Below, piece after piece: positions 17,260 through 52,141 of a stretch of 64,000 nucleotides of DNA. The stretch spans positions 1-64,000 of the forward strand of contig NZ_JAFBIZ010000002.1 of the NCBI RefSeq assembly GCF_021531995.1, in the 5' to 3' direction. The notes beneath the pieces are model-generated. The model worked only from the letters and a program-made list of their open reading frames with translations. It was not told where the DNA came from and made no database searches. The number at the start of each line of letters is the position of its first letter. Position 1 is the first letter of the stretch. This DNA comes from Faecalicatena contorta. Its GTDB lineage: Bacteria > Bacillota > Clostridia > Lachnospirales > Lachnospiraceae. The translations under genes were made by a program, and so were the position numbers.

Positions 17260-17260
17260 T

Positions 17261-29560: not shown

Positions 29561-30253
29561 TTATGCTCGTTTTCTAAAGTTCTGAACCAACAATATCGAA
29601 ATCATCATCTTCAGCATATAAGATGCCGATCTCGTCAGATTCAGATAACTTTCTCCAAATTGCCGCTCTTCCATCCTGACCTGAACCTCTGATACTTTTG
29701 CTCCATTTTTCAAAAGATATGACACGGTATCCGGTTCTGGTCCATAATTCAAATTCTTAGCAAACTCCTCTATCATCGGTTTTGAGAACATTCTCATTCC
29801 AGAGGTCGGATCAGAGATTCTGACCCCCGTCGTCATCTTAATTGCTACAGTTAACATTCTGCTTCCGATCATTCTAAGCGATCCACTCTTACGTTCATTC
29901 ACAAATCTGGAACCGATTACAATGTCATACCCTTCCTTAATCCGTTCCAGCATAGGTTTAATAAATTCCGGTCTGTGCTGTCCGTCTGCATCAAACTGTA
30001 TTGCATAAGAATAATTCTGTTTATGTGCATACTTCAGACCTGCCTGAAACGCACCCGCCAGTCCAAGATTGACCGGAAGATCTAATAGCTCATATCCTTT
30101 TTCCCGACATATTTCTGCTGTACGATCTTTGGATCCATCGTTTACAACAATATAATCATATTGTGAATATTTTTCCCTGATAAAATTTACTACATTTTCA
30201 ATATTCTCTTCTTCATTATAAGCAGGAATAATAATTAGTAATTCTTTTTCCAT
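29561..30253 (-). CDS. GacI/DPM1-like family 2 glycosyltransferase (polyprenyl-phosphate sugar synthase)
   Basis: A 230-residue GT2 enzyme. LLIIIPAYNEEENIENVV, IVVNDGSKDRTAEICR, PVNLGLAGAFQAGLKYA, AIQFDADGQHRPEFI and VIGSRFVN are hallmarks of enzymes that make polyprenyl-phosphate sugars. Only a short hydrophobic C-terminus is present (YMLKMMISILLVQNF), so it probably relies on the DUF2304 partner for membrane tethering, as GacI does on GacJ. The start overlaps the LicD stop by one base (TAATG). The sugar is unknown; GlcNAc is the precedent. Confidence 0.88.
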   Translation of the reverse strand: MEKELLIIIPAYNEEENIENVVNFIREKYSQYDYIVVNDGSKDRTAEICREKGYELLDLPVNLGLAGAFQAGLKYAHKQNYSYAIQFDADGQHRPEFIKPMLERIKEGYDIVIGSRFVNERKSGSLRMIGSRMLTVAIKMTTGVRISDPTSGMRMFSKPMIEEFAKNLNYGPEPDTVSYLLKNGAKVSEVQVRMEERQFGESYLNLTRSASYMLKMMISILLVQNFRKRA

Positions 30254-31125
30254 TACCTTGCTTCTCCTTCATCTCCAAACTCTAAGATATATGGACAGTG
30301 GTTCACTCTCTTTTCCGGCGGCGGAACCTGCATATAATCTCCAAACAACCGTCTCAGATAAGTATCATAGTCATTCGGCATATTTACCATCAAATGCTCA
30401 AACGGCATCTTCTTAAGTGGATACAACTCTTTTTCTGAAATATATGCTTTATGAGACATCGTAACTTCGAATGCATTGATATATTTCGAAGGTTCATGAT
30501 TATATCTTGTTGCCTCCCGAATCAGACATTTATATAAAAACCTTGGTGAAACATGAAGTATCTTCAATCCATAATGCGCAATCGCACAAATCACAGACGC
30601 GATCTGCTTCTTATATCCTTCTAATGGAATAATCGGCGTCGGTGTGCCACACAAAAAAATCAGTTTATTCAAAATCCATGTTTTTTTCAACTGTTTTTTT
30701 CTTTTTTTCGGATCATCCGGCATATGATCTAACGGAAAAATATCTATGTCAATGCATAGATCGCACTTCATCTTTCGAGATGTGTATGGTACAAATTTCG
30801 TTCCTTTTTTCTGAAGATGTGTAACATTACATGCGTAATTTTTATCAACAAGAGGTGTAAGAATCTTATATTTATCACCCATCTCCGATTCCATTATTTC
30901 CATAAATCTGTCATAATCTTCTCTAGGCATTGCGACATCAATGTCATCATCCCACGGAATAAAGCCCTGATGACGAACAACTCCAATTCCAGTACCTCCA
31001 AGCATAAAATATGTCAGATCATATTTCTCACACACTTTAATATAGTCCTCCAGAATCTCCGTCTGGACTTTCTGTAGTTTTTTCAATACTTCCGGCTCAT
31101 ATTCCTTATATTCCGCATTTTTCAT
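30253..31125 (-). CDS. licD: LicD-family phosphotransferase
   Basis: A 290-residue protein. The LicD core is YFMLGGTGIGVVRHQGFIPW directly followed by DDDIDVAMPREDY, the metal-binding acidic cluster. LCIDIDIFPLDHMPDD follows in the second half of the domain. LicD enzymes move phosphocholine from CDP-choline to wall or lipopolysaccharide glycans; others in the family transfer different phospho-alcohols. ATG 31125 is chosen because AGAGG lies 7 nt upstream; an upstream start at 31167 overlaps the preceding gene. It lies between a GT4 and a GacI-like GT2 gene. With licA, licC and a choline-type transporter in the same window, phosphocholine transfer is the likely role. Confidence 0.88.
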   Translation of the reverse strand: MKNAEYKEYEPEVLKKLQKVQTEILEDYIKVCEKYDLTYFMLGGTGIGVVRHQGFIPWDDDIDVAMPREDYDRFMEIMESEMGDKYKILTPLVDKNYACNVTHLQKKGTKFVPYTSRKMKCDLCIDIDIFPLDHMPDDPKKRKKQLKKTWILNKLIFLCGTPTPIIPLEGYKKQIASVICAIAHYGLKILHVSPRFLYKCLIREATRYNHEPSKYINAFEVTMSHKAYISEKELYPLKKMPFEHLMVNMPNDYDTYLRRLFGDYMQVPPPEKRVNHCPYILEFGDEGEAR

Positions 31126-31129
31126 CTGG

Positions 31130-32308
31130 TTACCTCTTACACACTTTCTGTATATTACTTTTTTCACATATTGTTTCTACCTGTTTTGCCGCAATCTCCC
31201 ATGTAAAACAGTTCTTCAGCCTCTGATAGGTCAGTTCCACTGCTTTTTTTCGATGTTCCGGATTATGAATTGCCTTTTCCAATGCAGGAAGAAGATTTTC
31301 CTCTTTATTATCCGGAATTACACTTCCATACGCATCATTGATCAACAACTCTTTGGCACCGCCCCTGGCCGTTGTTACAACATAACACTGACATGCTGCC
31401 GCTTCCAGAATAGATGTGGAAAATCCTTCTGAAAAAGACGGAAGGCAGAAAATATCTGTCTCATTCAGCAAAGATACGACCTTCTCAAAATCAATCCTTC
31501 CAAGTGGAATAATATGCTCTGTTTTTCTTCTTCTCACTTCTTCTTCCAGATCTCCATCACCTGCGATAAAAAGATAGACATCTTTTCTTTTTTTGCATAT
31601 CTCTTCCACCACATTCAAAAGACTTGGCAAGCCTTTTTCCTCCAGAAGTCTTCCGGTAAATGAAATTACAGTTGCATCCTCCGGGATATGATATTTTTCA
31701 CGAAAAACAGGAACTGCATTGTTCCTGATTGTTCGAATATCTTCCAGATCAATCGAATTATATACTACTCCTCTTGCCTGGATATGAAAATGTCGGAGCC
31801 ACTGATTACAGGCCTCTGATACTCCATAATAATTCTTACAAAACAAGCGGTCAACCCTTGTCAACATATGCTCAAACACACCACCCACGGTATCCCAGAA
31901 GCGACTGTGCACTGAAAGATGACTGGTTCCATGTTCCACTGTTATGCATGGACATTTTTTTCTCTTTGCTAAAATCATTCCATATAACGAATGAGGATAA
32001 AATCTGGTATTTACCAAAAACATATCAAACTTTTCTCTTTTCAGTCTCCTGTGAATCTTCCAGAATTCTTTATTAGGTTTCAGCACCGGATACCTTCCCT
32101 CCAGCAAGTTAAAACAAGGAACACGATAAACCAGAATTCCATCCATCCGCTCACTTGCAGGAAGATGATAGATATTAGATGTAACCACTACTACCTCATT
32201 TCCATCCTTTATCAATTGCTTTGACAGATTATAGGTATAACGCTCTACACCTCCCATATGCGGAAGATACTGGGCCGAAAATATACAATATTTTTTTCCG
32301 TTACTCAT
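31130..32308 (-). CDS. Family 4 glycosyltransferase
   Basis: A 392-residue GT-B enzyme. The N-terminal acceptor domain begins IFSAQYLPHMGGVERYTYNL (glycine loop). The donor domain has VISFTGRLLEEKGLPSLLNV, FIAGDGDLEEEV and PSFSEGFSTSILEAAACQCY with the conserved ExxxxxxxE motif of GT4. The donor and the linkage are not readable. ATG 32308 has AGAAGG 9 nt upstream and overlaps the flippase gene by 8 bp. It probably builds a side chain or the repeat unit handled by the adjacent flippase. Confidence 0.88.
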   Translation of the reverse strand: MSNGKKYCIFSAQYLPHMGGVERYTYNLSKQLIKDGNEVVVVTSNIYHLPASERMDGILVYRVPCFNLLEGRYPVLKPNKEFWKIHRRLKREKFDMFLVNTRFYPHSLYGMILAKRKKCPCITVEHGTSHLSVHSRFWDTVGGVFEHMLTRVDRLFCKNYYGVSEACNQWLRHFHIQARGVVYNSIDLEDIRTIRNNAVPVFREKYHIPEDATVISFTGRLLEEKGLPSLLNVVEEICKKRKDVYLFIAGDGDLEEEVRRRKTEHIIPLGRIDFEKVVSLLNETDIFCLPSFSEGFSTSILEAAACQCYVVTTARGGAKELLINDAYGSVIPDNKEENLLPALEKAIHNPEHRKKAVELTYQRLKNCFTWEIAAKQVETICEKSNIQKVCKR

Positions 32309-33548
32309 GTTCACTGACCTTCTTTCTCCGTATACACCAAAGCATTACAACAAACATCACGACATCCACAAGCAGCATCGGAACAATGTACCCTATGACC
32401 GCTCCTGTGATATCCATACGTTTCACAAGAATCGGAGTAAATACTAATGCTCCGGCAAAACCGACTCCATAACTGACCACAATCATCTTCTGTTGTCTTA
32501 AGACCGCAAGCACATAATAGAAGATGGTGATCAGTGCATTCAGACCACCGCCGAACATTACAAAGCACAGCTCTGTTCTATACGCTCCAAGATCCACTCC
32601 GGACACCAGATTCAGAATCGGAACTCCCAGAAGATATGCCCCCAGCACTCCCCCGACCGTCAGGAATGAAGCCCATGCACAGGACGTAATGATAATCCGG
32701 TTGAAGCTCTTCATATCTCTGTCATTCCATGCAACTGCCATCGGCGTCATCATCGGACGGAACGCAAAGAGACTGAACAGATTGATCACAAAAGCCGGCA
32801 TCAGAAGAAATCCATAATACGCCTGCATCTCTTTTGTCGAATAGGCTTCAATCGAATATTTGGAAGCATTTACCACATAATTGATCATAAAGCTTCCGAT
32901 AAAAAGCGGAAAACATTCCCGAAACAGTCCCTTCATGCTGTGTCCATCCCATAGAAGTCCGGCACGGTCAAAATGTACAGATCTGGAACGGTCAAAACAA
33001 CAGATAAAAACAATCGAAATTCCCACCATGGAAAAACTGGCAAGTACCAGATTATTCGTAACGAAAAGTACCAGAATAAATCCTATGGTGCTTAAGATTA
33101 CACGTATTCCCAGAGCTTGTCCGGAAAGATCGATCCTTCCTTTTTGCTGAAACATTCCCTGATAGGAATCAGAGATACCATCAATCGCTTTATACAGACA
33201 GATGAAAAAGATAATCACAGCATCCGCCCCGGTATAATGATGAAACCAGATAAAACCAACTGCCGCCAGCATCATACAGATACAGGTACATACACGAAAT
33301 GTAAAGTAAACCTTAAACTTATACTCTTCTTTTACATCTGTTGCCTGAATTGCCCTGGTTTCAAAACAACTGATCGTTGTCAAAAGCTGAGCCGTCGAAA
33401 AAGCCAGAGAAAACAGACCGGCATCCGAAGCTCCATTAATTCTTGTGACTGCAGTCAGCAATACAAAAGAAGAAAGTGCATTGCACATACTTCCGATCAT
33501 ATTCCATACAAATTTTGAACGGCTGCTTGTCTCACTTTTAAATCCCAT
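32301..33548 (-). CDS. Wzx/GacK-like polysaccharide flippase (MOP superfamily)
   Basis: A 415-residue integral membrane protein with about 12 helices, mostly free of charge within helices. The N-terminal KFVWNMIGSMCNALSSFVLL is the usual first helix of PST/Wzx-type exporters. GRIDLSGQALGIRVILSTIG in the middle also matches this family. These proteins flip undecaprenyl-linked sugars to the outer face; GacK in group A Streptococcus flips the lipid-linked GlcNAc donor. ATG 33548 has GGAGG upstream. It lies between tagD and the GT4 gene. Confidence 0.85.
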   Translation of the reverse strand: MGFKSETSSRSKFVWNMIGSMCNALSSFVLLTAVTRINGASDAGLFSLAFSTAQLLTTISCFETRAIQATDVKEEYKFKVYFTFRVCTCICMMLAAVGFIWFHHYTGADAVIIFFICLYKAIDGISDSYQGMFQQKGRIDLSGQALGIRVILSTIGFILVLFVTNNLVLASFSMVGISIVFICCFDRSRSVHFDRAGLLWDGHSMKGLFRECFPLFIGSFMINYVVNASKYSIEAYSTKEMQAYYGFLLMPAFVINLFSLFAFRPMMTPMAVAWNDRDMKSFNRIIITSCAWASFLTVGGVLGAYLLGVPILNLVSGVDLGAYRTELCFVMFGGGLNALITIFYYVLAVLRQQKMIVVSYGVGFAGALVFTPILVKRMDITGAVIGYIVPMLLVDVVMFVVMLWCIRRKKVSEHE

Positions 33549-33569
33549 GAACTCCTCCACTGCCCCTTC

Positions 33570-33965
33570 TTACTTTGATACCTTCAGATCTTTCTTGATC
33601 TGAGTTGTAGAAATCTCCGGAGTTCGCGGAAGATAGACAACCTCACACTGTTCTTTTAAGAAATCAAACTTGCCTTCCCAGTCATCTCCCATCACAAAAG
33701 TATCCACATGATACTCTTTTACATCCGTTACTTTCTGTTCCCATCCTTCTTCCGGAATAACCAGATCTACATAACGGATTGCTTCCAGCAGTTTCTTTCT
33801 CTCTTCATATGTAAAATAGCATTTTTTCTGTTTTTCATTCCAGTTAAATTCATCCGTAGACAGAGCAACAATCAGATAATCCCCATACTGTTTGGCTCTG
33901 CGAAGCAGATTAATATGTCCATAATGAAGCAGATCAAATGTTCCATAAGTAATTACTCGTTTCAT
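33570..33965 (-). CDS. tagD: Glycerol-3-phosphate cytidylyltransferase
   Basis: A 131-residue enzyme making CDP-glycerol from CTP and glycerol-3-phosphate. VITYGTFDLLHYGHINLLRR holds the HxGH nucleotidyltransferase motif. STDEFNWNEKQKKCYFTYEE, MGDDWEGKFDFL and the ISTTQIKKDL end match TagD/TarD over the full length. It overlaps the upstream LicD gene by 4 bp (ATGA) and has a GGAGG site. No TagB/TagF-type glycerophosphotransferase is in the window, so the user of CDP-glycerol is unclear; a neighbouring LicD-family enzyme is a candidate. Confidence 0.95.
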   Translation of the reverse strand: MKRVITYGTFDLLHYGHINLLRRAKQYGDYLIVALSTDEFNWNEKQKKCYFTYEERKKLLEAIRYVDLVIPEEGWEQKVTDVKEYHVDTFVMGDDWEGKFDFLKEQCEVVYLPRTPEISTTQIKKDLKVSK

Positions 33966-34813
33966 GATTCATCCTCCTCAAACTTTAAAATATACGGATA
34001 ATGGTTCTGGCGCTTCTCCGGCGGTGGAAGCTGCATATAATCCCCATACATCGCCCGCAGAATCTGGTCGTAATTCGCCGGTACTTTTACCATAATATCT
34101 TCAAACGGAAGCTCAACCAGATGTTCCAGTTCACTTAGATTGATTGCGCTCTCCTCGATCATAGTATCATTAAACTGTGTCACCACAGATGACTTTCCGT
34201 TATAACGTGTTGCATTTTCTTTCCATTTTTTACAGAGATATTCATTCGAAACTGGAAGCAGATTTAACAGATAGTGCAATGCTCCACATGTGAGACGCTT
34301 GAAAAGTTTCCCTTTTTTATGTACCGTACTCACATAAAAGTTAACATTCTTCATCATATAGATACTTCGAAGCATCATGGAACGTCGGATCTGTTTCTTC
34401 CTCTCTTTCGCATCTTCTGCAAGACCGTCAAAGACAAAAATATCTATATTGATCCCCATATTAAAATTACCATGATCGTAGATCGTTGCAAATCTTGTTC
34501 CTTTTTTATAAAACTTACTGACAAAATTATAAAACTTTTCCGGACGGTCCGGACCTGCAATCTCATAGTGTCCCTCTATTTCTTTCGGAGCAACTCTTAA
34601 GAATTTCTCATATTCTTCTCTGAGCATTCCAAAATCCATATCATCATCCCACGGAATAAACCCATGATGACGGACAACTCCGATATTCGTTCCAAATACT
34701 GCAAAATACTGAATATCATATTTATTACAGATTCTTACAAATTCCTTTAAAATTCCCAGTTCTTCTTCCTGAATCCTTTTCAGAACTGCCGGATCATACT
34801 GTTTGTATCCCAT
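33962..34813 (-). CDS. licD: LicD-family phosphotransferase (second copy)
   Basis: A 283-residue protein. The LicD core reads YFAVFGTNIGVVRHHGFIPW followed by DDDMDFGMLREEY, and INIDIFVFDGLAEDAKERKK matches the second block. It differs from the copy at 30253-31125 by FGTN instead of GGTG in the first glycine loop. That may mean a different donor or acceptor. It is the first gene of the run and is coupled to tagD by a 4-bp overlap, so CDP-glycerol is a plausible donor besides CDP-choline. AAAGGAAG precedes the ATG. Confidence 0.87.
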   Translation of the reverse strand: MGYKQYDPAVLKRIQEEELGILKEFVRICNKYDIQYFAVFGTNIGVVRHHGFIPWDDDMDFGMLREEYEKFLRVAPKEIEGHYEIAGPDRPEKFYNFVSKFYKKGTRFATIYDHGNFNMGINIDIFVFDGLAEDAKERKKQIRRSMMLRSIYMMKNVNFYVSTVHKKGKLFKRLTCGALHYLLNLLPVSNEYLCKKWKENATRYNGKSSVVTQFNDTMIEESAINLSELEHLVELPFEDIMVKVPANYDQILRAMYGDYMQLPPPEKRQNHYPYILKFEEDES

Positions 34814-34852
34814 AATAACTTCCTTTCTGCATACATTTATGCATACTAAGTT

Positions 34853-34861
34853 ATTGTATCA
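34853..34861 (-). promoter_or_regulatory. Extended -10 promoter for the licD-tagD run
   Basis: On the minus strand TGA plus TACAAT (34853-34858) form an extended -10 element about 40 bp upstream of the ATG at 34813. No good -35 hexamer is seen at standard spacing. Confidence 0.5.
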
Positions 34862-34916
34862 TAATTGTGCAATAAAATCTACTCCTCATATCAGATAACA
34901 GTCCCCAGATTATGCC

Positions 34917-34955
34917 AAAAAATCTGCTGCATGATCACAAATGATTATGCAGCAG
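34917..34955 (-). terminator. Rho-independent terminator of the repeat-protein run
   Basis: A 14-bp stem with one mismatch (34924-34937 and 34942-34955) and a 4-nt loop is followed on the minus strand by TTTTTT (34917-34922). It lies 15 bp after the stop of the wall-binding repeat gene. Confidence 0.88.
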
Positions 34956-34970
34956 TCCTGTAATGTTCCT

Positions 34971-36209
34971 TTATTTTGTTTTTCCCGGAATCCATCTGCC
35001 GGATTCATCCACATAATAATTGCCAATCCAGGTATCTTTCTTCAAGACTCCGCTGGCATTAAAGTAATAATCATAGCCTTCTATTTTCTGCCAGCCCGTC
35101 AGCATTGCTCCACTGGATGGATTCAGATAATAGGTATTCCCTTTTTCATCCGTTGACCAGCCTGTCACCATGACTCCAGTTTCGGCATCCAGGAAGTACC
35201 ATACGTTATTTACTTTCTGCCAGCCCGTCTGAAGATATCCGCTTCCATTAAAATAATACCACTCATCATCAATCTTCTGCCAGCCCGTCAGCATTGCTCC
35301 ACTGGACGGATTCAGATAATAAGTATGTCCTCCTTCCGGCAGCCAGCCTGTCACCATAATTCCGGTAGATGGATCCAGATAATACCATTTACCGCCAATC
35401 TTATTCCACTCTGTTACCATCGCTCCGTTTCCCGAGAAATAATACCAGGAACCACCAAGCGACAGCCAGCCGGTCACCATTGCTCCTGTAGATAGATCCA
35501 GGAAATAAACCTTATCACCAATTGGTGTGAACCCGGTTCTCTGCACATTCCCGTCTTTAAAGTAATAATACGTTCCATCAATAGACACCCATCCGGAATC
35601 TACTGCTCCATTCACAGAAAAATACATGCTGAGTCCATTGTATGTATACCATCCCACATAAAGAGATCCATTTGAATTAAACCGGTAAAGCACGCCTGCA
35701 ATCTCTGCTATGCCTTCTGTCTCGCCAAATATCTTTCCGCTGTACATGAACCCCTTTCCAGATTCCACATTAGCAGCTTCGTGAAAGTAGTACCATTTAC
35801 CGTCAATCTTCTTCCATCCGGTAACCATTGCCCCGGAACTGTCAAAATAATACCAGATATTACCTCCGGCATTATACCATCCGGTCTTCATTCTTCCATT
35901 TGCATCAAAATAATAAGTAGATCCACCGATCGTCAATGTGCTGTTCTTCACATGTTGTCCGTTGGTCTGAAGAAAATACCAGTAACCGCCGGATTGTACC
36001 CATCGTCCATTCACTGTCACACTTTGCAGCGTCTCCGGAATCTGTATCTCTTCCACGATCTCTCCTGCAGTTTCTATCGCTGTCTCCATCTCCTGTTTTG
36101 CAGAAGTATCCTGTACATTTTCCGCAGAAACGGTCATTGGAATCAGCACAGTCGCTAACACAGCTGCCATCATACTTCTCACTTTTTTACCAATCTTCTT
36201 CCCTGCCAT
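34971..36209 (-). CDS. Secreted choline-binding-type repeat protein without an enzyme domain
   Basis: A 412-residue protein. A signal peptide (MMAAVLATVLIPMTVSA) is followed by a short Glu/Thr linker. From about residue 65 to 405 it is all wall-binding repeats (consensus GWxxxxGxWYYFxxxxGxMxTG). No catalytic domain is visible. Some repeats form a higher-order block of three units: the DNA near 35091 and 35280 is almost identical at a distance of 189 bp. It could be a structural surface protein, an adhesin or a competitor for the same ligand. It is the last gene of the run coming from the esterase and muramidase genes, 31 bp after the muramidase. Confidence 0.85.
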   Translation of the reverse strand: MAGKKIGKKVRSMMAAVLATVLIPMTVSAENVQDTSAKQEMETAIETAGEIVEEIQIPETLQSVTVNGRWVQSGGYWYFLQTNGQHVKNSTLTIGGSTYYFDANGRMKTGWYNAGGNIWYYFDSSGAMVTGWKKIDGKWYYFHEAANVESGKGFMYSGKIFGETEGIAEIAGVLYRFNSNGSLYVGWYTYNGLSMYFSVNGAVDSGWVSIDGTYYYFKDGNVQRTGFTPIGDKVYFLDLSTGAMVTGWLSLGGSWYYFSGNGAMVTEWNKIGGKWYYLDPSTGIMVTGWLPEGGHTYYLNPSSGAMLTGWQKIDDEWYYFNGSGYLQTGWQKVNNVWYFLDAETGVMVTGWSTDEKGNTYYLNPSSGAMLTGWQKIEGYDYYFNASGVLKKDTWIGNYYVDESGRWIPGKTK

Positions 36210-36240
36210 ATACGTTTCCCTTCTTGATTATTTCGTCATC

Positions 36241-37872: not shown

Positions 37873-37908
37873 GATTACCCCTTTCTTTTCTGGAAATAAA
37901 ATGTGTCA

Positions 37909-40143: not shown

Positions 40144-40162
40144 AAAAATACCTCTTTTATCC

Positions 40163-40190
40163 ATTATATTCTAGCCTGTATTATTGCAAA
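40163..40190 (-). promoter_or_regulatory. Sigma-A type promoter for the esterase gene
   Basis: On the minus strand TTTGCA (40185-40190), a 16-bp spacer and TATAAT (40163-40168) lie 20 bp upstream of the ATG at 40143. The whole interval 40144-40575 (432 bp) has no gene; it holds this promoter, two terminator-type hairpins and a 52-bp-period repeat. Confidence 0.55.
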
Positions 40191-40349: not shown

Positions 40350-40365
40350 AGTCTTTGTAAGAAGA

Positions 40366-40485: not shown

Positions 40486-40491
40486 AAGTGA

Positions 40492-43512: not shown

Positions 43513-43550
43513 GATCATTCCTCCATCCTGGTTTTTATTCCACTGCCTCT

Positions 43551-43598
43551 ATTATATCATCTTTTTCCATCCATTCAAGAACGCCTCTGGAGTTCTTG
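43551..43598 (-). promoter_or_regulatory. Promoter with an operator-like dyad for the transglutaminase-like gene
   Basis: On the minus strand TTGAAT (43573-43578), a 16-bp spacer and TATAAT (43551-43556, with TGA before it) form a good promoter 39 bp before the start. A perfect 7-bp inverted repeat, CAAGAAC and GTTCTTG (43576-43582 and 43592-43598), overlaps the -35 element, as a repressor or activator site would. Confidence 0.6.
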
Positions 43599-43712
43599 CC
43601 GCGGCGTAGTTGAATGCAAAGTATTCTTCCACTGGCCACGCCTGTGATCCGCCGGAGGCTTCACATTACAGAAGGGGATTGTCACCCGCTACTGAAATAA
43701 AAATGTTGAAAA

Positions 43713-43751
43713 GGTGTTGCTTCACAACCTTTCCGGTTATAAAGCAACACC
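43713..43751 (-). terminator. Terminator of the large repeat-protein gene
   Basis: A 10-bp stem (43713-43722 and 43742-43751) with a smaller inner stem is followed on the minus strand by TTTTCAACATTTTT. It starts 43 bp after the stop of the gene ending at 43794. Confidence 0.85.
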
Positions 43752-43793
43752 CTGTTCCATTCTTTATTCTCGCAGCATATTCTGTTTTATGTA

Positions 43794-46385
43794 TTATTTA
43801 ACCCATATTCCACTTCCTGTGAACCAGTATTTCTTTCCATTAATGGTTCTTTCACCGGTATACAGGCGTCCGCTGGAAGATGCATAATACCAGTATCCAT
43901 CTACTTTTGCCCATCCGCCTTTTACCATTGCGCCGCTGCCATCAAACAGATAGAATTCAATTCCTGTATAGAGCATACCTGTCCACATACATCCATTGTT
44001 AAAGTAATATGCTTTGCCTCCTATCGTTTTCAGTCCTTCTGCCGGATTTCCGTTTTCAAAATAGTACCAGACTGTTCCATAATCATCCTTCACAGAATAC
44101 CATCCTGTCTTTACCTCTGTCATGACACCGTCACTTCTGAAGAATCTATGGCCACTCAGTTCTGATACCCAGACATAACCTGTCTTCATCTCCGGATCCA
44201 GATAATACTGCTTTCCGTCAATCGTCTGAAGTCCGGTCTGCTGCTCTCCGTTTTTATAATAGTACCAGGAACCATCAATTTTCTGCCAGCCGTTCTTCAG
44301 ATCTGTTCTTACTCCGGAAGCATTGATATAGTATTCTTCTCCTGTATCTTCGTCATACCAGAACATATCGGAAACCATCACCCCATTCCCATCGAAATAA
44401 TAGGTGACATTGTTAATCTCCAGCTTTGCTTCCTGATTCAAAGTTCCGTCTTCATTAAAGTAATACCAGTCTCCCGTACGGGTTTTCTTCCATGCCTTTT
44501 TCCCCTTGATCTCACCGAGATAATATCCGGAAGAATCAATATCATATAATTTTCCTTCATCAACGATCGGATAGGTTGCAAGTGTATAATAATCCGTGAA
44601 ATAATACCATTTTCCATTAATCGTCTTCCATCCCTCATCCGCGATGAGTTTTCCGGTGGCAGGATCTGCATAAAACCATTCACCATATGGATTCTTGATC
44701 CAACCCTTCATGATCTCACCGTCATATCCGACATAATAACATCCGTCATCAGAATCGACAATCATATTCGTCGCCATAGCACCATTCATAATATAATATC
44801 TGTCCTGCAGCCATCCACTGTACGGTTCTCCATCCTCCGTCCGGTAATACCATGTTCCGTCTGCGAGCTCCCAGCCTGCTTTTGCTCCAAGCTTCTTAAC
44901 CAGTGCTCCGTTATCAGAAAAGAGATAGGACTCTCCTTCAATCTCATATACACCGGTCACCATCTCGCCATCCCAGTCAACATAGTATTTATGATTGTCT
45001 ACCCACTGTTCGGTCAGTCTTCTTCCCTGTTCATCTGTACGATACCAGCTAAGTCCAAAGCGCACCCAATCATTCATTACAAGCGCACCTTTGGCATCTG
45101 TCATATACACTTCTCCGTCATACCAGCACATGCCCTGGTCCATGACACCAGCATAGTTAAAGAGGTATTTCTTGCCGCCAATCTCATATAGACCATCTGT
45201 ATACAGATTACCGTCTTCCCCGATATAATACCATTCACCACCGGTCTGCACCCATCCGGTCTTCTGAATAATCACTCCGTCCGAGTCTGCAAGAAGCCAT
45301 ACATCATCATAATCTTCCTCTTCTTCGTTCCAGATCGATACTACAAAAGAACCGGTCTGCATGATGCCCTGCCAGTCAAAATAATACTGTTTTCCTTTAT
45401 CAGCCACGGTCTCGCTGCTGGCAATCCGATTGTCCTCAAAGAAATAATACCAGTCCTTCGTTTCCGGTGACTGATACCAGCCTTTTGCATGCTTGATGAT
45501 TGCGCCGTTACTGTCAGTAAGGTATGGTCTTTCCCCACTGATCCTGATCACACCGATCTGCAGCTCACCATTCCAGCCAAAATAATAGTCCTTACCGTCA
45601 ATCGTTTTTGTCTCATCACAGACATATGAACCATCTTCATAATAATACCATGCGCCGTTGATCATCTGCCAGCCGTTCAGATCTGCATCGTCAACAACCG
45701 CCAGTACCCCATCCTCATCTGCATAATAGAGTACGTCACCAATCATCACATTGCCGTTTCTGACCAGATATCCATTGGTATTAAAATAATAGGAATTGCC
45801 GTCTTCTTCAAGCACTTCACTTTCATACCGGAAGAAATCTTCTCCGTAATATTGATATTCCTCCTCATATTCATCATAATACCAGCCGGTAATCAAGATT
45901 CCATCTTCAGCTGATCTGATATATCCGCCTTTTTCTGTATCTTCATTCCAGTAATAAACATCCCCGTTCACCATCAACGTTCCGTCAGACCAGAAGTAAT
46001 ACCAGTCTCCTTCAATCTGGTACATGGTGTCTTCCAGCATTACGCCGTCCACGTAATAATACCGGTATCCGTCTTCTTCATACCAGCCCGTCTCCGGAAT
46101 CCCCACGTCAGTTCCTCCGTCTGATACAACCGCCGGATCCTCAGATTCTGTCTCTTCTATCGTCTGTTCCGCTTTGGTCTCCTCTTCCTCCGCTGTCGCT
46201 TCTTCAGACAGTTCCACTTCTTCTGTTACAGTCTCCTGAACATCTTCTGTTACAGTCTCCTCCTGAACCACTTCTTCCTGTACTGCATCATCAGACACGC
46301 TGTCCTGTGCCAATGCAGGCGTTACGGAACTTACCGATAATGCCATAATGCTGAAAAGTGCAACCAGCTTTTTTCTTTTTATCAT
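43794..46385 (-). CDS. Large secreted choline-binding-type repeat protein without an enzyme domain
   Basis: An 863-residue protein. A signal peptide (LVALFSIMALSVSSVTPALA) is followed by an acidic Glu/Val/Thr linker (about 25-90). Nearly all of residues 95-863 is degenerate wall-binding repeats. They vary more than in the neighbours, with many units carrying acidic inserts such as YYDEYEEEYQYYGEDFF. No catalytic domain is seen. ATG 46385 is preferred because AGGAGG lies 7 nt upstream. It diverges from the plus-strand repeat gene at 46593. Its role may be structural or adhesive; it could also be a scaffold of unknown ligand. Confidence 0.83.
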   Translation of the reverse strand: MIKRKKLVALFSIMALSVSSVTPALAQDSVSDDAVQEEVVQEETVTEDVQETVTEEVELSEEATAEEEETKAEQTIEETESEDPAVVSDGGTDVGIPETGWYEEDGYRYYYVDGVMLEDTMYQIEGDWYYFWSDGTLMVNGDVYYWNEDTEKGGYIRSAEDGILITGWYYDEYEEEYQYYGEDFFRYESEVLEEDGNSYYFNTNGYLVRNGNVMIGDVLYYADEDGVLAVVDDADLNGWQMINGAWYYYEDGSYVCDETKTIDGKDYYFGWNGELQIGVIRISGERPYLTDSNGAIIKHAKGWYQSPETKDWYYFFEDNRIASSETVADKGKQYYFDWQGIMQTGSFVVSIWNEEEEDYDDVWLLADSDGVIIQKTGWVQTGGEWYYIGEDGNLYTDGLYEIGGKKYLFNYAGVMDQGMCWYDGEVYMTDAKGALVMNDWVRFGLSWYRTDEQGRRLTEQWVDNHKYYVDWDGEMVTGVYEIEGESYLFSDNGALVKKLGAKAGWELADGTWYYRTEDGEPYSGWLQDRYYIMNGAMATNMIVDSDDGCYYVGYDGEIMKGWIKNPYGEWFYADPATGKLIADEGWKTINGKWYYFTDYYTLATYPIVDEGKLYDIDSSGYYLGEIKGKKAWKKTRTGDWYYFNEDGTLNQEAKLEINNVTYYFDGNGVMVSDMFWYDEDTGEEYYINASGVRTDLKNGWQKIDGSWYYYKNGEQQTGLQTIDGKQYYLDPEMKTGYVWVSELSGHRFFRSDGVMTEVKTGWYSVKDDYGTVWYYFENGNPAEGLKTIGGKAYYFNNGCMWTGMLYTGIEFYLFDGSGAMVKGGWAKVDGYWYYASSSGRLYTGERTINGKKYWFTGSGIWVK

Positions 46386-46529
46386 TCCCATTCCTCCTAA
46401 CTATTACAAATAATCTGCACTATCAATTATACAAATCATACCATTTATTAAATATTTATACAATACTTTTCCCTTCTGCTGTATTAAAAGGGATTTCGGA
46501 TTATTCCTTCCTTTTTTCTGATATTTTAA

Positions 46530-46558
46530 TTGTCATTACAATATTTCTTTTGTATAAT
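46530..46558 (+). promoter_or_regulatory. Sigma-A promoter for the plus-strand repeat protein
   Basis: TTGTCA (46530-46535), a 17-bp spacer and TATAAT (46553-46558) form a near-consensus promoter 35 bp before the ATG at 46593. An AGGAGG ribosome site lies 7 nt before that ATG. Confidence 0.82.
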
Positions 46559-46592
46559 AATACTATCTTTTACATTATGAGGAGGTAATGAT

Positions 46593-47876
46593 ATGAAAAA
46601 CTATCAAAAACAATTACTGTCATTATTTCTGGCTCTGACATTAACCTGTGCGGCTCCTCTCACAGCACTTGCCGCAGATGCAGATGCAGATACAGCTGAA
46701 GATGCGAATGTACAGGCAGAAGTGTCTGTTTCAGAAGATGACAGTCAGGAACAACCGGATACGGATATTACAGATGAGGCGGACGTTTCTGATACAGAGG
46801 TAATTCAGGAATTCCCGGAAGATAAAGCCTCTTCACCAACAGAAGAAGCGAATGCTGCAGATAATAAAGATATCTCCGTTCCGGAATCTGAGAGCGGTTC
46901 TGTTACGGAAGAATCCGAAGCTCCGGTACTCTTTGATTCCGGAAGCGGATACTGGCGTCACAACAGCAATGGATACTGGTTCGAAATCATTGGCGGCGGA
47001 TATCTGTGCAATAACATCTATACCATTGATGGTGTTACTTATGCCTTTGACTCCAGAGGATATATGGTGACCGGCTGGTTCAAATTCGAAGGTCTGTGGT
47101 ACTACTTTGACAGCAACGGAGCACAACACCGGGGATGGCTCAATGACGGTGGAAAATGGTACTATCTGGATCCGAATACAGGATATGGCTATGCAATGAT
47201 TGCAAATGGACGTTACGAGATCAGCGGCAAGATCTATTGCTTCCGTTCAGACGGGTCCATGGTCATCGGCTGGTATCAATTCTCAGAAGGGTGGCGCTAC
47301 TACAACAGCAATGGTTATGAATGCACCGGCTGGATAAAATCCGGCGGAAAGTGGTACTATATGATTCCGAACAGTAACGCGGTATATGCCAACCTGATGC
47401 AGAAAGAAGGATGGCGTAATCTCGGCGGAAAGACATATCACTTTAATAAAGATGGTTCCATGACCGTTGGGTGGTACTACTCATCTTATTATAAAGCTTA
47501 CTTCTATTATGACAGTGACGGTGCCGAGCACTCCGGATGGCTCAAATCCGGTGGAAAATGGTATTATCTGAATCCGGACGCTCTCAATGCCATGGCATGC
47601 AATGGATGGTTGACGATTAACGAAAAGTACTATTACTTTACAGAAACCGGCGCCATGGTAACCGGCTGGGGAAAGATAGAAACGAGTACAGGTACAAAAT
47701 ATGTTTATCTGGATGTCCCGAATGGTAATCTGGTATTCGGCTGGAAGAAGATCAATTACAAATGGTATTATTTCGATCCAAACAACAACGGTTTCATGGT
47801 AACCGGCTCTCTTCTGATCGACGGACGCATCTGCGTCTTTGATTCTAACGGTGTATGGCTTGGATATGCCAACTAA
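46593..47876 (+). CDS. Secreted choline-binding-type repeat protein on the plus strand
   Basis: A 427-residue protein. A signal peptide (LLSLFLALTLTCAAPLTALA) precedes an acidic Asp/Glu/Ala/Ser linker (about 29-112). Wall-binding repeats then run to the C-terminus (GYMVTGWFKFEGLWYYFDSN; GWLKSGGKWYYLNPD). No enzyme domain is visible. It is one of two plus-strand genes in the window, with its own strong promoter and terminator, so it is a single-gene unit. Its repeats belong to the same family as those of eight other proteins in the window. Confidence 0.87.
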   Translation: MKNYQKQLLSLFLALTLTCAAPLTALAADADADTAEDANVQAEVSVSEDDSQEQPDTDITDEADVSDTEVIQEFPEDKASSPTEEANAADNKDISVPESESGSVTEESEAPVLFDSGSGYWRHNSNGYWFEIIGGGYLCNNIYTIDGVTYAFDSRGYMVTGWFKFEGLWYYFDSNGAQHRGWLNDGGKWYYLDPNTGYGYAMIANGRYEISGKIYCFRSDGSMVIGWYQFSEGWRYYNSNGYECTGWIKSGGKWYYMIPNSNAVYANLMQKEGWRNLGGKTYHFNKDGSMTVGWYYSSYYKAYFYYDSDGAEHSGWLKSGGKWYYLNPDALNAMACNGWLTINEKYYYFTETGAMVTGWGKIETSTGTKYVYLDVPNGNLVFGWKKINYKWYYFDPNNNGFMVTGSLLIDGRICVFDSNGVWLGYAN

Positions 47877-47926
47877 TTACAGAAACAATCATAAGGATGA
47901 ACAACGTCATATAATGACATCATAAA

Positions 47927-47966
47927 AATGCGGTTTCCAAAGGAACACTCCTCTGGAAACCGCATT
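47927..47966. terminator. Bidirectional terminator between the repeat protein and the BCCT gene
   Basis: A perfect 13-bp inverted repeat (47927-47939 and 47954-47966) lies between convergent genes. It is flanked by A-rich sequence on one side and T-rich sequence on the other, so it can serve both directions. Confidence 0.87.
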
Positions 47967-47987
47967 TTCATTGACAGAGCTTCCTAC

Positions 47988-49514
47988 TTATTGATGCTCG
48001 TTCAGATATTTTCCTGCATCTTTAAAAAAGCTTGCTACAATAATCATAACAATGATCCCAATCGGGAATGCCGCAATGATCGCCACCGACTGCAGACTGT
48101 TCATCGAATTTTCAGAGAAGATCAGTGCGATCGGAAACAGGATAAACAGCACAGCCCAGAATGTACGGATCTTTTTATCCGGTTCTTCATCTGCTTTTAA
48201 AAACTTGTAGGAATAGGAGGAAACAACCATTGTCAATGCATCAAACGTCGTCGAATAAAATGCAATCATCGTAACTACCAGGATTACCAGCACCAGCTTT
48301 GCACACGGCAGGGTATTCAGAATCTCTATGATCACAGCCGGAATATCCGTTCCGTTTTCCAGTTCACCGACAACATCTATTACACCTTTCATCTGCTGCG
48401 ACAATCCATAATTCCCCAGCACGATAAATGACATAAATGTTCCGGCAAGACCACATCCATATGCTCCCATCACCGTATTTCTGATGGTTCTTCCCTTACT
48501 GATAATTCCGATAAAAAAAGGCGTTGCCACACACCATGCCATCCAGTAGGCCCAATAGAAAATACTCCAGTTCTGCACAAAGAAAGTTTCTCTGGCGGGA
48601 TCCATCCAGGTTGCCATCCCAACAAAATTCTGTACCAGATTTCCAATCGAGGATACCCCTGTTTCCAGAATGTATCTGCATTCTCCGCCTCCAATCAATA
48701 CATAGGCAAGCAGAACAAAGAACAGATACGCACAGATGCTTGCAAGTCTGGATACCCCCTTCATGCCAAACCATACCGTCAGTGTATATACGAATGCGAT
48801 CATCAGCAGAATAATAATTGTAAGCGTAATTCCAGGCGTCAGTCCGAACACATGGCTGAGTGCCGCAGAAAGCAGTGGAGTTGCCAGCGAAAACGTTGTA
48901 GCTGTTCCTGCAAGCAAAGCTATGACCGCAAGCAGATCAATGATTCGTCCTATGATTCCGTCTACTTTATCTCCAAGCAGAGGTCTGCATGCTTCTGAGA
49001 ACTTCTGTTTCTCTCTGCCTCTGACATGAATCATAAATCCAAAGGCAACCGCAAGAATAATATAAAAACTCCACGCAATCGGTCCCCAGTGAAACAACGT
49101 GTAGGTAGGTGCCCATTTCTGCATACCCCCCATCGCAACGATGTGGGGATCATTGCCATACAAGGCCCATTCACACAGAGAATAAAACAGGATATCTGCC
49201 GCCATTGTTGAAGTAAATATCATGGTTCCCCATTTAAACGTACTGTACTCCGGCTTGTCCTGATCTCCAAGGCGAATCTTTCCATATCGTGAAAATGCCA
49301 TATAAAGCGAACAGATCACTGCCCCACAGCCAAGCAATACATAATAGATTCCAATATCATCCCCCAGAAAATTTCTTATATTGCCCAGAACATTTTTTGA
49401 CTGTTCCGGACAGATCATAAATACCACACACAGTGCTATGATCACGATCAGCGGAACGATCATGGTCGACAGATCCAGACGCTCTATTAATTTTTTGTTA
49501 TTTTTTTGTGACAT
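47988..49514 (-). CDS. BCCT-family transporter (choline/betaine/carnitine type)
   Basis: A 508-residue membrane protein with 12 predicted helices. TMIFTSTMAADILFYSLCEW, HWGPIAWSFYIILAVAFGFM and TATTFSLATPLLSA are characteristic of BCCT transporters. A tryptophan-rich stretch around WSIFYWAYWMAWCVATPFF corresponds to the aromatic substrate box. It starts 1 nt after the licC stop with GGAGG upstream, so it belongs to the lic operon. In classic lic1 loci choline uptake is done by LicB, a different family. Here BCCT most probably brings in choline for LicA. Betaine or carnitine cannot be excluded from sequence. Confidence 0.92.
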   Translation of the reverse strand: MSQKNNKKLIERLDLSTMIVPLIVIIALCVVFMICPEQSKNVLGNIRNFLGDDIGIYYVLLGCGAVICSLYMAFSRYGKIRLGDQDKPEYSTFKWGTMIFTSTMAADILFYSLCEWALYGNDPHIVAMGGMQKWAPTYTLFHWGPIAWSFYIILAVAFGFMIHVRGREKQKFSEACRPLLGDKVDGIIGRIIDLLAVIALLAGTATTFSLATPLLSAALSHVFGLTPGITLTIIILLMIAFVYTLTVWFGMKGVSRLASICAYLFFVLLAYVLIGGGECRYILETGVSSIGNLVQNFVGMATWMDPARETFFVQNWSIFYWAYWMAWCVATPFFIGIISKGRTIRNTVMGAYGCGLAGTFMSFIVLGNYGLSQQMKGVIDVVGELENGTDIPAVIIEILNTLPCAKLVLVILVVTMIAFYSTTFDALTMVVSSYSYKFLKADEEPDKKIRTFWAVLFILFPIALIFSENSMNSLQSVAIIAAFPIGIIVMIIVASFFKDAGKYLNEHQ

Positions 49515-49515
49515 A

Positions 49516-50391
49516 TTATTTTTCCTCCATTACACGCAGTTTTCCAGTTCCATAATCATATGTGTAGGAATCATTCCGGTATCTGAAGCAAACCCCCGCT
49601 GCCTGATTTCCTTTTTTTACCGGTGCAAATCCATAAAGATCCTTTTCTTCACATTTCAACCGTTCTGCGATCGTCTCCATGATATGACATCCTGATGACG
49701 TCAGGTACTCGGGCACCTGCTCTCTTAATTCTTCAAAACTGTCAAATTCCAGCACATTTCCATCATCTTCCCGCCTCTCATACAGTACCATTTCCTGTAT
49801 ATGTTCCAGATAAAGATCTTCCCAGTAGGTATCTGCTGCCTTTGGATCTTCAAACGCTTTCTCCAGAAGCGGAATCAGCTGTCCTGAAAATCTTTCATCA
49901 AATAATACAATACCCTGCATGACCCAGGCATCCTTGCCTCCGATCACAACCTCTGTAATCTTCCCTTCTGAATCCGAAAAGACACACCATTCATCCGTTT
50001 TTCCCTGCTTGTACATGGTCGTATAATATGGCCGTTCTTCTTCCCTGCAAAATGGGTTCTCACGAAAATAATAATCACTGCAGGATATATAAGTATTCTT
50101 CAGCTTTTCTTTTGCCACATACAGACTGGAATGATTATTTTTTTCCAGATAGTATGGGTTTTCAATTAATGTAACTTTGCATTTTTCTTTCAGATATTCA
50201 AACTGCTCTCTGTGATATCCGACGATTATTGTAATGTCTTCGATTCCTGCTTCCTGAAGCTGTCTGATCTGTCGTTCAATCAGAACCTCTCCATGGATCG
50301 TAAGCAGTGCTTTTGGTTTTTCATACGACAATGGAGCCAGCCTTGTCGACATTCCGGCAGCCATGATGACTGCATTATCTATCTGTATCAT
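49516..50391 (-). CDS. licC: Choline-phosphate cytidylyltransferase with a vestigial kinase lobe
   Basis: A 291-residue protein. Residues 1-230 form a LicC-type nucleotidyltransferase: NAVIMAAGMSTRLAPLSYEK, PKALL, ITIIVGYHREQFEYLKEK, NNHSSLYVAKEKL and CSDYYF. LicC makes CDP-choline from CTP and phosphocholine. The last 55 residues (about 236-290) align with the start of the kinase domain in the adjacent fusion (IAERLKC against IAEVLNC; then VKKG against LKKG, and CFRYRNDSY against QFRCRDKKY). The protein ends there, without the kinase catalytic residues. ATG 50391 has AAGGAG upstream and overlaps the preceding gene by 17 bp. Confidence 0.87.
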   Translation of the reverse strand: MIQIDNAVIMAAGMSTRLAPLSYEKPKALLTIHGEVLIERQIRQLQEAGIEDITIIVGYHREQFEYLKEKCKVTLIENPYYLEKNNHSSLYVAKEKLKNTYISCSDYYFRENPFCREEERPYYTTMYKQGKTDEWCVFSDSEGKITEVVIGGKDAWVMQGIVLFDERFSGQLIPLLEKAFEDPKAADTYWEDLYLEHIQEMVLYERREDDGNVLEFDSFEELREQVPEYLTSSGCHIMETIAERLKCEEKDLYGFAPVKKGNQAAGVCFRYRNDSYTYDYGTGKLRVMEEK

Positions 50392-52141
50392 CAATTGCTC
50401 CTTTCTCCAGTTCTTCTTTTACAATGTGATAATATTCTTTCGCATATCGATATTGTCTTAGTGAATACTCTCCGAATTCCACACCACACACTCTTTTATA
50501 CTCACACCAGTTGCTCCAGAGGAAACCGCACACTGCAATGTAGCAATAGATTTTAATCCGGATCTTCTGATCCACCTGTCCCTGAAAATACAGATCGATC
50601 AGCTCATCGACCTTGTCTCTGTCATACATGGAATAGATTGCAAACATGGCTATATCAACATGAACATCCTGCATTCCTGCGTATTCCCAGTCGATCAGGT
50701 ATATTTTCTCCTTCGTCAGAAGAAAATTATCACAGTTAGCATCTATATGAGTCAAAGATATCTGTTTTGGCTGTGTATCAATATATTGCTTTAATTCATA
50801 CATTTTTGTTTTTGTATTCTGATAATCCCTATATGCTGAAGGTTCCGCTCCCCTTAATTTTTCATAATATTCCATCTGTTCAAATATATCAAAGGTATGT
50901 CCGACCTTCAGATTCATGTTATGGAATTCCCGCAAAAGATCCATACATATCTTTACATCTTCCGGATTGTCACTGTCACAGTTTCTTGCATTTTCAACAA
51001 ACTCTGTAATCTTATACCCGTTTTCCGATGAAATATAGATCACAGGATCCGTAAGTTCCGTACCTTTTAACTGCTCATATACTTCGTACTCCTGTCTGCG
51101 ATTGATCATCTGATCTGTGCCTTCCCCGGGTATCCGCATAATATACTTTTTGTCTCTGCACCGGAACTGAAACGAGCGATTCGTCATTCCTTTCTTCAGA
51201 GACCGAATCTCAACAATCTCAGCTGCATTACAGTTCAGTACTTCCGCGATCAATGCAATCACATCTGACTGCAGCTGATTGGAGTTGTCATCCAGCTCTC
51301 TTAGCTGTTCATATGTATTAATTTCAAACACATCCTCTGCACTCACCTCTTTTGGTCCGACAAGATACCGATCCCCTTCCTGAAGTGCCTGTTCCCAGAA
51401 TGCCTGATTATATTCCCGTTTTGCGGAGTATTCCCGAATGTTTTTCTTTAATTTTTCAGCGTCACTCTCAAGCATATATGCAATTCCGACCATGGCATTG
51501 CCATCTTCATTTCGTTTCACACTTACTAATTCTTTTTTTCGATTGATCCTGACAGAGCTTTCTTCAGAAAACGCATCCGTCACCATATACCAGGAATACC
51601 ACTCTTTTTTGGAAAACGGATTATTTCTGCACCAGATATCGCATGGTATGATATAGGTATTACCAATCTTCTCTACCACTCTGTTCAGAGAATGCAGATT
51701 ATTTTTCCTTGAGTAATCTGCATTGAACACCAGATTCACTCCAAACTTATCGATCAGATATTCATACTGTTCCTTCATGAATCCGACGATGATATCAATA
51801 TCATATATTTCTGCCTCATGTAATTGCAGAATCAGACGTTCGATCAACGACTCTCCGTGAACTTCCAACAGACCCTTCGGCATCTCCACATTGATCGGAA
51901 CCATTCGCATACCGTATCCTGCAGCAAGAATCACAGCATTTTTGGGTTTTTTCTTCTGTATTTCACATAGCGCTTTCTGAGAAAGGTTCATATCTTCATC
52001 TATATACGCACTATTGATCAGTTTTTTTAATGCACTGTTTACTTTTCCAACAGAATATCCCGTATAAGCTGAGAGTTCTCTTTGTGAGTGAAACCTCTTT
52101 TCAGTCAAAGCGTTCATGATATCATATTCTTGAATGTTCAT
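50375..52141 (-). CDS. licA: Winged-helix / LicC-like nucleotidyltransferase / LicA choline kinase fusion
   Basis: A 588-residue three-part protein. Residues 1-60 form a winged-helix DNA-binding domain (SQRELSAYTGYSVGKVNSAL, a helix-turn-helix). Residues 66-285 are a LicC-type nucleotidyltransferase (NAVILAAGYGMRMVPINVEM, PKGLL, IIVGFMKEQYEYL). Residues 292-588 are a choline-kinase fold (LKKGMTNRSFQFRCRD as the ATP loop, LTHIDANCDNFL with the catalytic Asp, LIDWEYAG as the metal site). It could phosphorylate choline and activate it to CDP-choline in one polypeptide and also regulate its own operon. ATG 52141 has AGGAGA upstream and a promoter at 52176-52204; the longer frame from 52243 would pass through the promoter. 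Confidence 0.87.
   Translation of the reverse strand: MNIQEYDIMNALTEKRFHSQRELSAYTGYSVGKVNSALKKLINSAYIDEDMNLSQKALCEIQKKKPKNAVILAAGYGMRMVPINVEMPKGLLEVHGESLIERLILQLHEAEIYDIDIIVGFMKEQYEYLIDKFGVNLVFNADYSRKNNLHSLNRVVEKIGNTYIIPCDIWCRNNPFSKKEWYSWYMVTDAFSEESSVRINRKKELVSVKRNEDGNAMVGIAYMLESDAEKLKKNIREYSAKREYNQAFWEQALQEGDRYLVGPKEVSAEDVFEINTYEQLRELDDNSNQLQSDVIALIAEVLNCNAAEIVEIRSLKKGMTNRSFQFRCRDKKYIMRIPGEGTDQMINRRQEYEVYEQLKGTELTDPVIYISSENGYKITEFVENARNCDSDNPEDVKICMDLLREFHNMNLKVGHTFDIFEQMEYYEKLRGAEPSAYRDYQNTKTKMYELKQYIDTQPKQISLTHIDANCDNFLLTKEKIYLIDWEYAGMQDVHVDIAMFAIYSMYDRDKVDELIDLYFQGQVDQKIRIKIYCYIAVCGFLWSNWCEYKRVCGVEFGEYSLRQYRYAKEYYHIVKEELEKGAIDDTDR

Follow-up and report, generated by a model that had tools for sequence, protein, structure and literature searches.

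Phosphocholine, which C-reactive protein and natural antibodies recognize and which serves in host mimicry, is known mainly from airway bacteria. In Streptococcus pneumoniae, the pathway of which is set out in the accessible part of PMC13385700, choline is carried on teichoic acid. Clostridium saccharoperbutylacetonicum also has choline in its teichoic acid and many choline-binding proteins (CBPs; 66 annotated), although it belongs to the genus Clostridium and its announcement names no lic genes, Pce or rhamnan (PMC3593318). Rhamnan decorations of the Group A carbohydrate, the lactococcal PSP and the enterococcal EPA, as covered in the accessible parts of PMC8327497, PMC10821137 and PMC7188991, combine a GacI/GacJ-DUF2304 pair, a flippase, an ABC-exported rhamnan, a GacH-type enzyme, an LCP protein and LicD. 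Here we analysed a 64,000-nucleotide stretch of Faecalicatena contorta, a Lachnospiraceae species (NCBI RefSeq assembly GCF_021531995.1, contig NZ_JAFBIZ010000002.1, positions 1 to 64,000 of the forward strand), hereafter the window, in which lic genes, CBP genes and a Pce-type esterase gene lie beside a rhamnan cluster.

We favor, with moderate confidence, a phosphocholine and CBP system of the pneumococcal kind, probably placed on a rhamnan decoration. The window shares with the pneumococcal lic loci LicA, LicC, LicD, a flippase, hydrolases that dock through repeats and a Pce whose metal motifs agree, whereas a fusion of helix-turn-helix, LicC and LicA accompanied by a second LicC, a BCCT transporter instead of LicB, a GacI/GacJ-type rhamnan context and a TagD-type partner of a second LicD are its own, all in one window. 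The proposal draws on gene identities, motifs, synteny, co-occurrence and the coupling of a cage residue to the lic genes. Nearly all main genes of the window lie on the minus strand, to which the coordinates written below with two dots refer unless marked otherwise.

The lic operon consists of the fusion (50375..52141), the second LicC, a CTP:phosphocholine cytidylyltransferase (49516..50394), and the BCCT transporter (47988..49514), and its first-pass annotation agrees with both Pfam and the Protein Data Bank (PDB). The fusion matches HTH_24, NTP_transf_3 and Choline_kinase, as well as pneumococcal LicA (4r77, 6e-29) and LicC (1jyk, 2.5e-26), and the second LicC matches NTP_transferase and 1jyk (7.7e-45). 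In the LicA part, HID...N and DWEY stretches, which we take to be the catalytic motifs, align with 4r77. The open reading frame (ORF) runs to 52243, but translation probably starts at 52141, as first annotated, because the Met there is invariant in five aligned fusions. The transporter (PF02028) is over the cut-off of TIGR00842 and below that of the choline-specific BetT model, and is a probable choline importer.

Relatives of the fusion were the best 80 of at least 570 confirmed loci (L011-L090), each with up to 10 kb on either side, 14 of them being shorter than 10 kb in all. They come from Lachnospiraceae, Oscillospiraceae, Erysipelotrichaceae, lactobacilli, Streptococcus porci, Treponema and others. 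The N-terminal winged helix/helix-turn-helix, which the first-pass annotation lacked along with the TagD-type enzyme and the GacI/GacJ-like pair with its flippase, recurs in 76 of them. A LicC-LicA fusion is reportedly also present in Treponema denticola.

The two CYTIDYLYLTRANSFERASE domains of the operon, the fusion's own and that of the second LicC, were aligned to 1JYK. Trp136 of LicC, which we take to belong to its aromatic box, is present in all 68 alignable copies of the second LicC among the relatives, the remaining 3 of 71 having a gap there, and the window copy keeps the equivalents of Trp136, Tyr190 and Trp191. The accessible part of PMC6697681, on PntC/LicC cytidylyltransferases, describes an aromatic box plus Asp105 and Asp192 for LicC; the second LicC is closest to the pneumococcal enzyme, whereas the fusion's own domain has Ser at the Trp136 place in 77/80, Trp in 0/80 and Pro at 105 in 79/80. 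Trp136 is not regained in the ten fusions that have no second LicC within 3 kb, although one of these loci (L061) has a LicC 3.1 kb off and several contigs are short. These counts weaken the fusion alone as the maker of CDP-choline. We infer that CDP-choline would be made by the separate LicC, and the fusion's cytidylyltransferase domain may act on another substrate, act weakly or serve a regulatory role with the helix-turn-helix. That phosphocholine is activated by this operon seems very likely.

Nine window proteins carry PF19127/PF01473 repeats. This is the number first annotated, and Pfam confirms the domain split, but three of the nine lie outside the span then given, at 9165-16296. Five have enzymatic domains: a YkuD L,D-transpeptidase (9162..10901; PF03734 4.9e-17), an NlpC/P60 protein (10917..12452; PF00877 1.2e-15), an Amidase_3 protein (13300..16296; PF01520 2.9e-40, PF01832 partial), a GH25 muramidase (36241..37872; PF01183 4.3e-35) and a Transglut_core protein with Big_2 domains (40576..43518; PF01841, PF02368, PF19127). 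One is a Pce-like metallo-beta-lactamase protein (37909..40164), and three are repeat-only (34971..36209, PF19127 1.2e-67; 43794..46391, 865 aa, 3.5e-48; 46593..47876 on the plus strand, 8.7e-50). All nine have signal-like N-termini as judged by eye, which is the evidence for the secretion claimed at first. Double-Trp hairpins, found with a simple pattern, number 74 in the nine proteins and 0 in a non-repeat window protein. The clustering of repeats is not due to chance, because 67 of the 107 PF19127 matches of the genome (150 of 168 candidates scored) fall on the window's contig, which is 2% of the genome.

The amidase frame 13300-16296 stops in-frame inside its glucosaminidase domain and stays open for about 80 residues past the stop (13037-13303). 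A nonsense change, a sequencing error and an unusual stop are candidate explanations.

Association between lic genes and repeats was examined in 150 genomes of the same family, representing 149 genera and including the window genome, which were searched with PF01633, PF19127, PF04991, the fusion protein and the Pce domain. A genome was called lic+ when a LicA-domain match lay in an open frame 590 aa long or longer, as in 30/150. For G093 and G133 the match covers just the LicA half of the frame, with a separate LicC-like match elsewhere in the genome, and in G119 and G149 the match is in two pieces. At least 20 PF19127 matches occur in 25/30 lic+ genomes versus 11/120 others (Fisher 2.8e-15). 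In a class-level sample of 291 genomes, 281 of them outside the family, at least 7 matches occur outside the family in 8/16 lic+ versus 2/265 lic- genomes (6e-10), where both thresholds were set after the tables were seen and at most 23 (class search) or 43 (family search) candidates were scored per genome. These p-values and those for Trp below take no account of kinship.

In choline-binding repeats the ligand is gripped through cation-pi contacts by a pair of aromatic residues, most often Trp (accessible part of PMC4929436). For each hairpin we recorded which residue occupies the place of the second Trp, using a pattern that does not demand Trp. At loci chosen as top repeat matches, the Trp fraction has a median of 0.49 (0.29-0.96) in 20 lic+ genomes versus 0.00 (0-0.43) in 16 lic- genomes with repeats (p=6e-7), G063 being the outlier among the latter. 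The lic- set was drawn from 17 genomes, which were those with at least 9 PF19127 matches in the family search other than G144 (9 matches) and G020, a genome at 67% completeness whose LicA and LicC pieces fall on different contigs. The window genome was kept out; G072 and G118 (lic+) and G114 (lic-) were left out for not reaching 4 hairpins; of the 25 repeat-rich lic+ genomes, G013, G081 and G096, for which no top-match places were listed, were not sampled; and G392, of the same family in the class sample, was added. With all loci, the medians are 0.50 for 23 lic+ versus 0.00 for 18 lic- family genomes (p=1.7e-7), after removal of those that did not reach 6 hairpins (family members G081, G096, G124 with Trp in 2/4, G150 with 0/4, G176 and G331; outside it G296, G319, G247, G357, G272, G340 and G433). 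Repeats of lic- genomes have mainly Thr, Lys, Tyr or Arg at the place of the cage Trp. That the cage Trp follows the pathway making its ligand is the strongest sequence evidence that the window repeats would bind choline, and we are highly confident in predicting that they dock on phosphocholine. Separately, G124, a genome of the window genus where the fusion was not found, has an amidase-like protein (by eye) with Trp-type repeats (L156 8545), possibly a lysin aimed at other strains.

Both associations could instead reflect shared ancestry of the lic+ genera and not function, since genera are not independent and the p-values were obtained without a species tree. We regard this as improbable, because the 150 genomes span 149 genera, the lic-repeat association recurs outside the family, and within the window genus only one of three genomes is lic+, with 107 repeat matches versus 5 and 2. 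Fusion and Pce were likewise found only in the window genome among these three.

The Pce-type esterase (37909..40164) matches pneumococcal Pce/CbpE at about 1e-43 (1wra 2.6e-43, 2bib 4.5e-42), bearing out its first annotation, and has the motifs VDSGED, THAHSDHIG, TSDLE and KMCHHA at ORF residues 63, 111, 248 and 348. Where aligned, it shares [VI]D.GED, THxHSDHIG, a later Asp and an HH pair with 1WRA and other Pce-type proteins; at the metal motifs, the G093 and G399 copies are interrupted or incomplete. Pce occurs in 8/150 family genomes, all of them lic+ and repeat-rich (p=1e-6), and LicD lies within about 22 kb of Pce in 7/8, the contig of G018 being too short to tell. In the class sample, Pce was found in the window genome and in G399, a lic+ genome of another family where a single stretch (L154) contains LicCA, LicD, Pce and repeat proteins. 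Trimming of phosphocholine by the Pce-type enzyme is very likely. The catalytic domain of the G399 Pce, which has LicCA and LicD as neighbors, apparently falls into two reading frames.

PF04991 is found twice in the window, in agreement with the two LicD-family transferases first annotated. They belong to one tightly packed row: LicDb (33962..34813; 1.5e-38), a TagD-type glycerol-3-phosphate cytidylyltransferase overlapping it (33570..33965; 1coz 1.5e-59), a Wzx/MOP flippase (32301..33560; PF01943 4.8e-7), a GT4 glycosyltransferase (31130..32314; PF00534), LicDa (30253..31167; 9.2e-47), a GacI/WpsA-like GT2 that may be a polyprenyl-phosphate sugar synthase (29561..30253; PF00535, PpgS model 5.1e-30, below cut-off) and, directly downstream, its GacJ/WpsB-like DUF2304 membrane partner (29199..29549; PF10066 6.5e-30). 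The row continues into a 643-aa probable membrane protein (27265..29196), a GacH/LtaS-like sulfatase-family enzyme that is a possible glycerol-phosphate transferase (25301..27253; PF00884 2e-35, LtaS model 1.4e-7, below cut-off) and the rhamnan cluster of RmlB, RmlA, RmlC, an ABC exporter, glycosyltransferases (GT2, WsaF-like), an epimerase and RmlD (16312..25219, from domain matches). The GT4 also stands beside LicD in other genera, scoring 642 bits to the Dorea phocaeensis (G145) copy and 553 to that of G005.

The 643-aa protein gave no match in Pfam and NCBIfam scans, and DUF2142 proteins take its place in G145 and G124. A single-sequence AlphaFold model of it (pLDDT 40.7) was unusable and was not used.

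Phosphocholine handling by both LicD proteins, as first proposed, becomes less likely. LicDb overlaps the TagD-type gene and groups with a LicD of the congener G124 (support 97/83), and the lic loci fetched from G005 and G145 have one LicD each, to which LicDa is related. The LicD tree (49 rows) did not settle on bootstrap, so that only local placements are used; its lic+ and lic- rows cluster loosely, with 13 label changes versus a shuffled mean of 16.9 and values as low in 20/500 shuffles. NCBIfam models name no LicD substrates. LicDa is probably the phosphocholine transferase, and LicDb with the TagD-type enzyme would most likely transfer glycerol phosphate.

In published rhamnan-decoration layouts, a GacJ-like DUF2304 gene comes directly after a GacI-like GT2 gene, and the further components are a Wzx flippase, a GT-C transferase, GacH and LCP (accessible parts of PMC8327497 and PMC10821137). 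In domains and gene order, the window has the same GT2-DUF2304 succession together with a flippase, an ABC exporter, Rml genes and LCP. LicD in those decorations differs in being linked to ribitol or glycerol phosphate, and the word phosphocholine does not occur in the accessible text of the EPA paper (PMC7188991). Because TagD beside LicDb and the GacI/GacJ-like pair with its flippase point there, a rhamnan side chain is a reasonably probable carrier, judged from operon context and the published GacI/GacJ logic.

Phosphocholine may instead sit on a teichoic-acid-like or capsule-like polymer, as in pneumococcus, with the rhamnan merely nearby. LCP ligase, GT2, Wzy-type polymerase, second LCP ligase and WcaJ-type initiating transferase genes, for a second or shared polymer, are indeed present at 1669..7911; the flippase in the LicD operon is the only flippase match among the genes scanned; and teichoic acid is the choline carrier in both pneumococcus and C. 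saccharoperbutylacetonicum. However, the genes for LicD, flippase and GT4 overlap or directly adjoin those of the GacI/GacJ-like pair and continue into the rhamnan genes on the same strand, and the combination of LicD, flippase, GT4, GT2 and DUF2304 genes recurs in G005 and G145, which makes the non-rhamnan carrier rather unlikely in our estimation.

For the rhamnan-borne system, the substrates, the carrier and every chemical step are inferred, and the course would be as follows. BCCT would bring choline in, the LicA part of the fusion would phosphorylate it, and CDP-choline would be formed mainly by the separate LicC. LicDa would then transfer phosphocholine to a lipid-linked side-chain unit that the GacI/GacJ-like pair would begin and the GT4 enzyme would help to build, and LicDb with the TagD-type enzyme would most likely add glycerol phosphate to the same unit. 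Once flipped, the unit would be joined outside to the rhamnose polymer, which the ABC transporter would bring out of the cell and LCP ligases would attach to the wall. The nine window repeat proteins and others elsewhere in the genome would dock on phosphocholine via two-Trp cages, while the Pce-type enzyme would trim it. The uptake, activation, attachment, recognition and removal of choline, first read as a single set, are supported as such by co-occurrence, synteny and cage residues, with the rhamnan carrier being the conjectural part.

Several observations weigh against this proposal. Only 56/110 window hairpins have Trp at the scored place and 54/110 lack it; and outside the family, three lic+ genomes (G208, G350, G296) have zero Trp in the hairpins counted and the Trp test had 7 versus 2 usable genomes, too few (p=0.17). 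The repeat-only protein 34971..36209 matches pneumococcal Pce, CbpJ, CbpF and LytA in the PDB, but its best matches are clostridial toxin repeats and not pneumococcal CBPs; therefore membership in the repeat family alone is no proof of choline binding. Half of the lic+ genomes outside the family (8/16) have fewer than 7 repeat matches, and G306, 61% complete and with no fusion found, has a weak 52-residue Pce-domain match. The nearest relative of LicDa by path (53% identity) is a LicD of G140, a genome where the fusion was not found and where another cytidylyltransferase fusion stands beside that LicD, so LicDa alone is no proof of phosphocholine either. The GT-C step is putative, with the 643-aa protein assigned to it from gene position, and the polymer cluster at 1.7-7.9 kb could provide the carrier instead. 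Among the 80 fusion loci, LicD is found in only 13 and Pce in only 1, that of Dorea phocaeensis.

Five lic+ family genomes (G022, G042, G047, G098, G109) have at most one repeat match, which also weighs on this side and fits another explanation, namely that the lic genes serve choline uptake and CDP-choline synthesis toward phosphatidylcholine or osmoprotection, the repeats binding sugars. The BCCT family also carries betaine and carnitine, with the BetT model below its cut-off here, and LicD relatives include the lipid cholinephosphotransferase Mf1 (below cut-off). This explanation is nevertheless highly improbable, given that a Pce-type esterase with its motifs is confined to lic+ genomes in the family sample, that the cage Trp tracks lic across genera, and that LicD and CBP genes are near LicCA in a number of loci (LicD in G005, G145, G093, G131 and others).

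A neighborhood comparison of LicA, LicD, Pce and RmlB had been suggested with the first-pass annotation. Across the 80 loci, phmmer searches with the window proteins assigned a BCCT to 66, a DMT permease in its place to 5, the second LicC to 71, a repeat protein to 19 and at least two strong Rml genes to 6. By these role counts, together with those of LicD and Pce, the three-gene operon of fusion, LicC and BCCT is common and the close packing of all roles is not. Nine genomes with more distant fusions (L142-L150; 38-41% identity) have repeat proteins nearby and no LicC or BCCT match in the fetched stretch.

The first-pass annotation also knew of no other locus that combines all roles next to rhamnan genes. 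Dorea phocaeensis (G145) shows that the layout is not singular, as it has, within about 50 kb, Wzy/LCP/WcaJ-type genes, RmlABCD, an ABC exporter, DUF2304, GT2, GT4, LicD, a flippase, Pce, CBPs, BCCT, LicC and LicCA. At the same chromosomal site in another genus (G005), HPr is followed by one gene, LicCA, LicC, BCCT, LicD, flippase, an amidase CBP, GT4, GT2 and DUF2304, then by an ABC exporter and rhamnan-type transferases, with one LicD and no TagD match in the fetched stretch.

Other content is found at this site in further relatives. In G124, of the window genus, a rhamnan cluster lies near the housekeeping genes known from the window locus. Neither lic nor Pce nor repeat-protein genes were found in the stretches fetched around it. 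This cluster has two LicD genes, a class V aminotransferase and, at L104:11774-14205 beside them, a TagD-type cytidylyltransferase fused to a Gfo/Idh/MocA oxidoreductase. G140, lic- and with Trp-poor repeats (3/20), has a GT4/LicD/GT2/DUF2304 set on its HPr contig, about 35 kb away, together with a LicC-like domain fused to a threonine-phosphate-decarboxylase-like domain (L127:1988-3793; PDB 6oux 2.5e-45), a possible maker of CDP-ethanolamine or CDP-aminopropanol. This suggests that head groups may be exchangeable at the rhamnan locus, the groups being assigned from one genome each. We tentatively put forward, as a possibility short of an even chance, that gut Lachnospiraceae have one rhamnan locus, on the HPr-YbbR-CdaA contig, with an exchangeable head-group cassette, either lic phosphocholine or other CDP-activated amino-alcohol or glycerol phosphates according to genus. 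The repeats would have co-evolved, keeping or losing the Trp cage, and many 'choline-binding' repeats of lic- gut bacteria would recognize something else.

Among the papers listed in our searches of open-licence literature there was no report of phosphocholine walls in Lachnospiraceae. Within their accessible parts, a 2023 survey of phosphocholine pathways in 26 species has no match for the terms Clostridi or Lachnospir (PMC10434233), a 2025 review of gut surface polysaccharides does not contain the word choline (PMC12413058), and a review of surface proteins describes the repeats as widespread in Lachnospiraceae with choline given as ligand (PMC5817068). New here are the co-occurrence of lic genes and repeats, the confinement of Pce to lic+ family genomes, and the tracking of lic by the cage Trp. 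If phosphocholine decorates many gut clostridia, these commensals would build choline from the host or its diet into their walls and present a widely recognized antigen in the gut, and many of their surface proteins would be held non-covalently and be releasable by choline. The Trp rule would also give a sequence test of which PF01473/PF19127 gut proteins really bind choline.

Outside the genes discussed above, the locus has the housekeeping neighbors HPr, YbbR, CdaA, RecD2, MreB and UvrAB (Pfam). A 521-aa protein (76-1638) that adjoins the LCP gene is free of repeats and has a signal-like N-terminus and a weak cohesin-like match below the cut-off.

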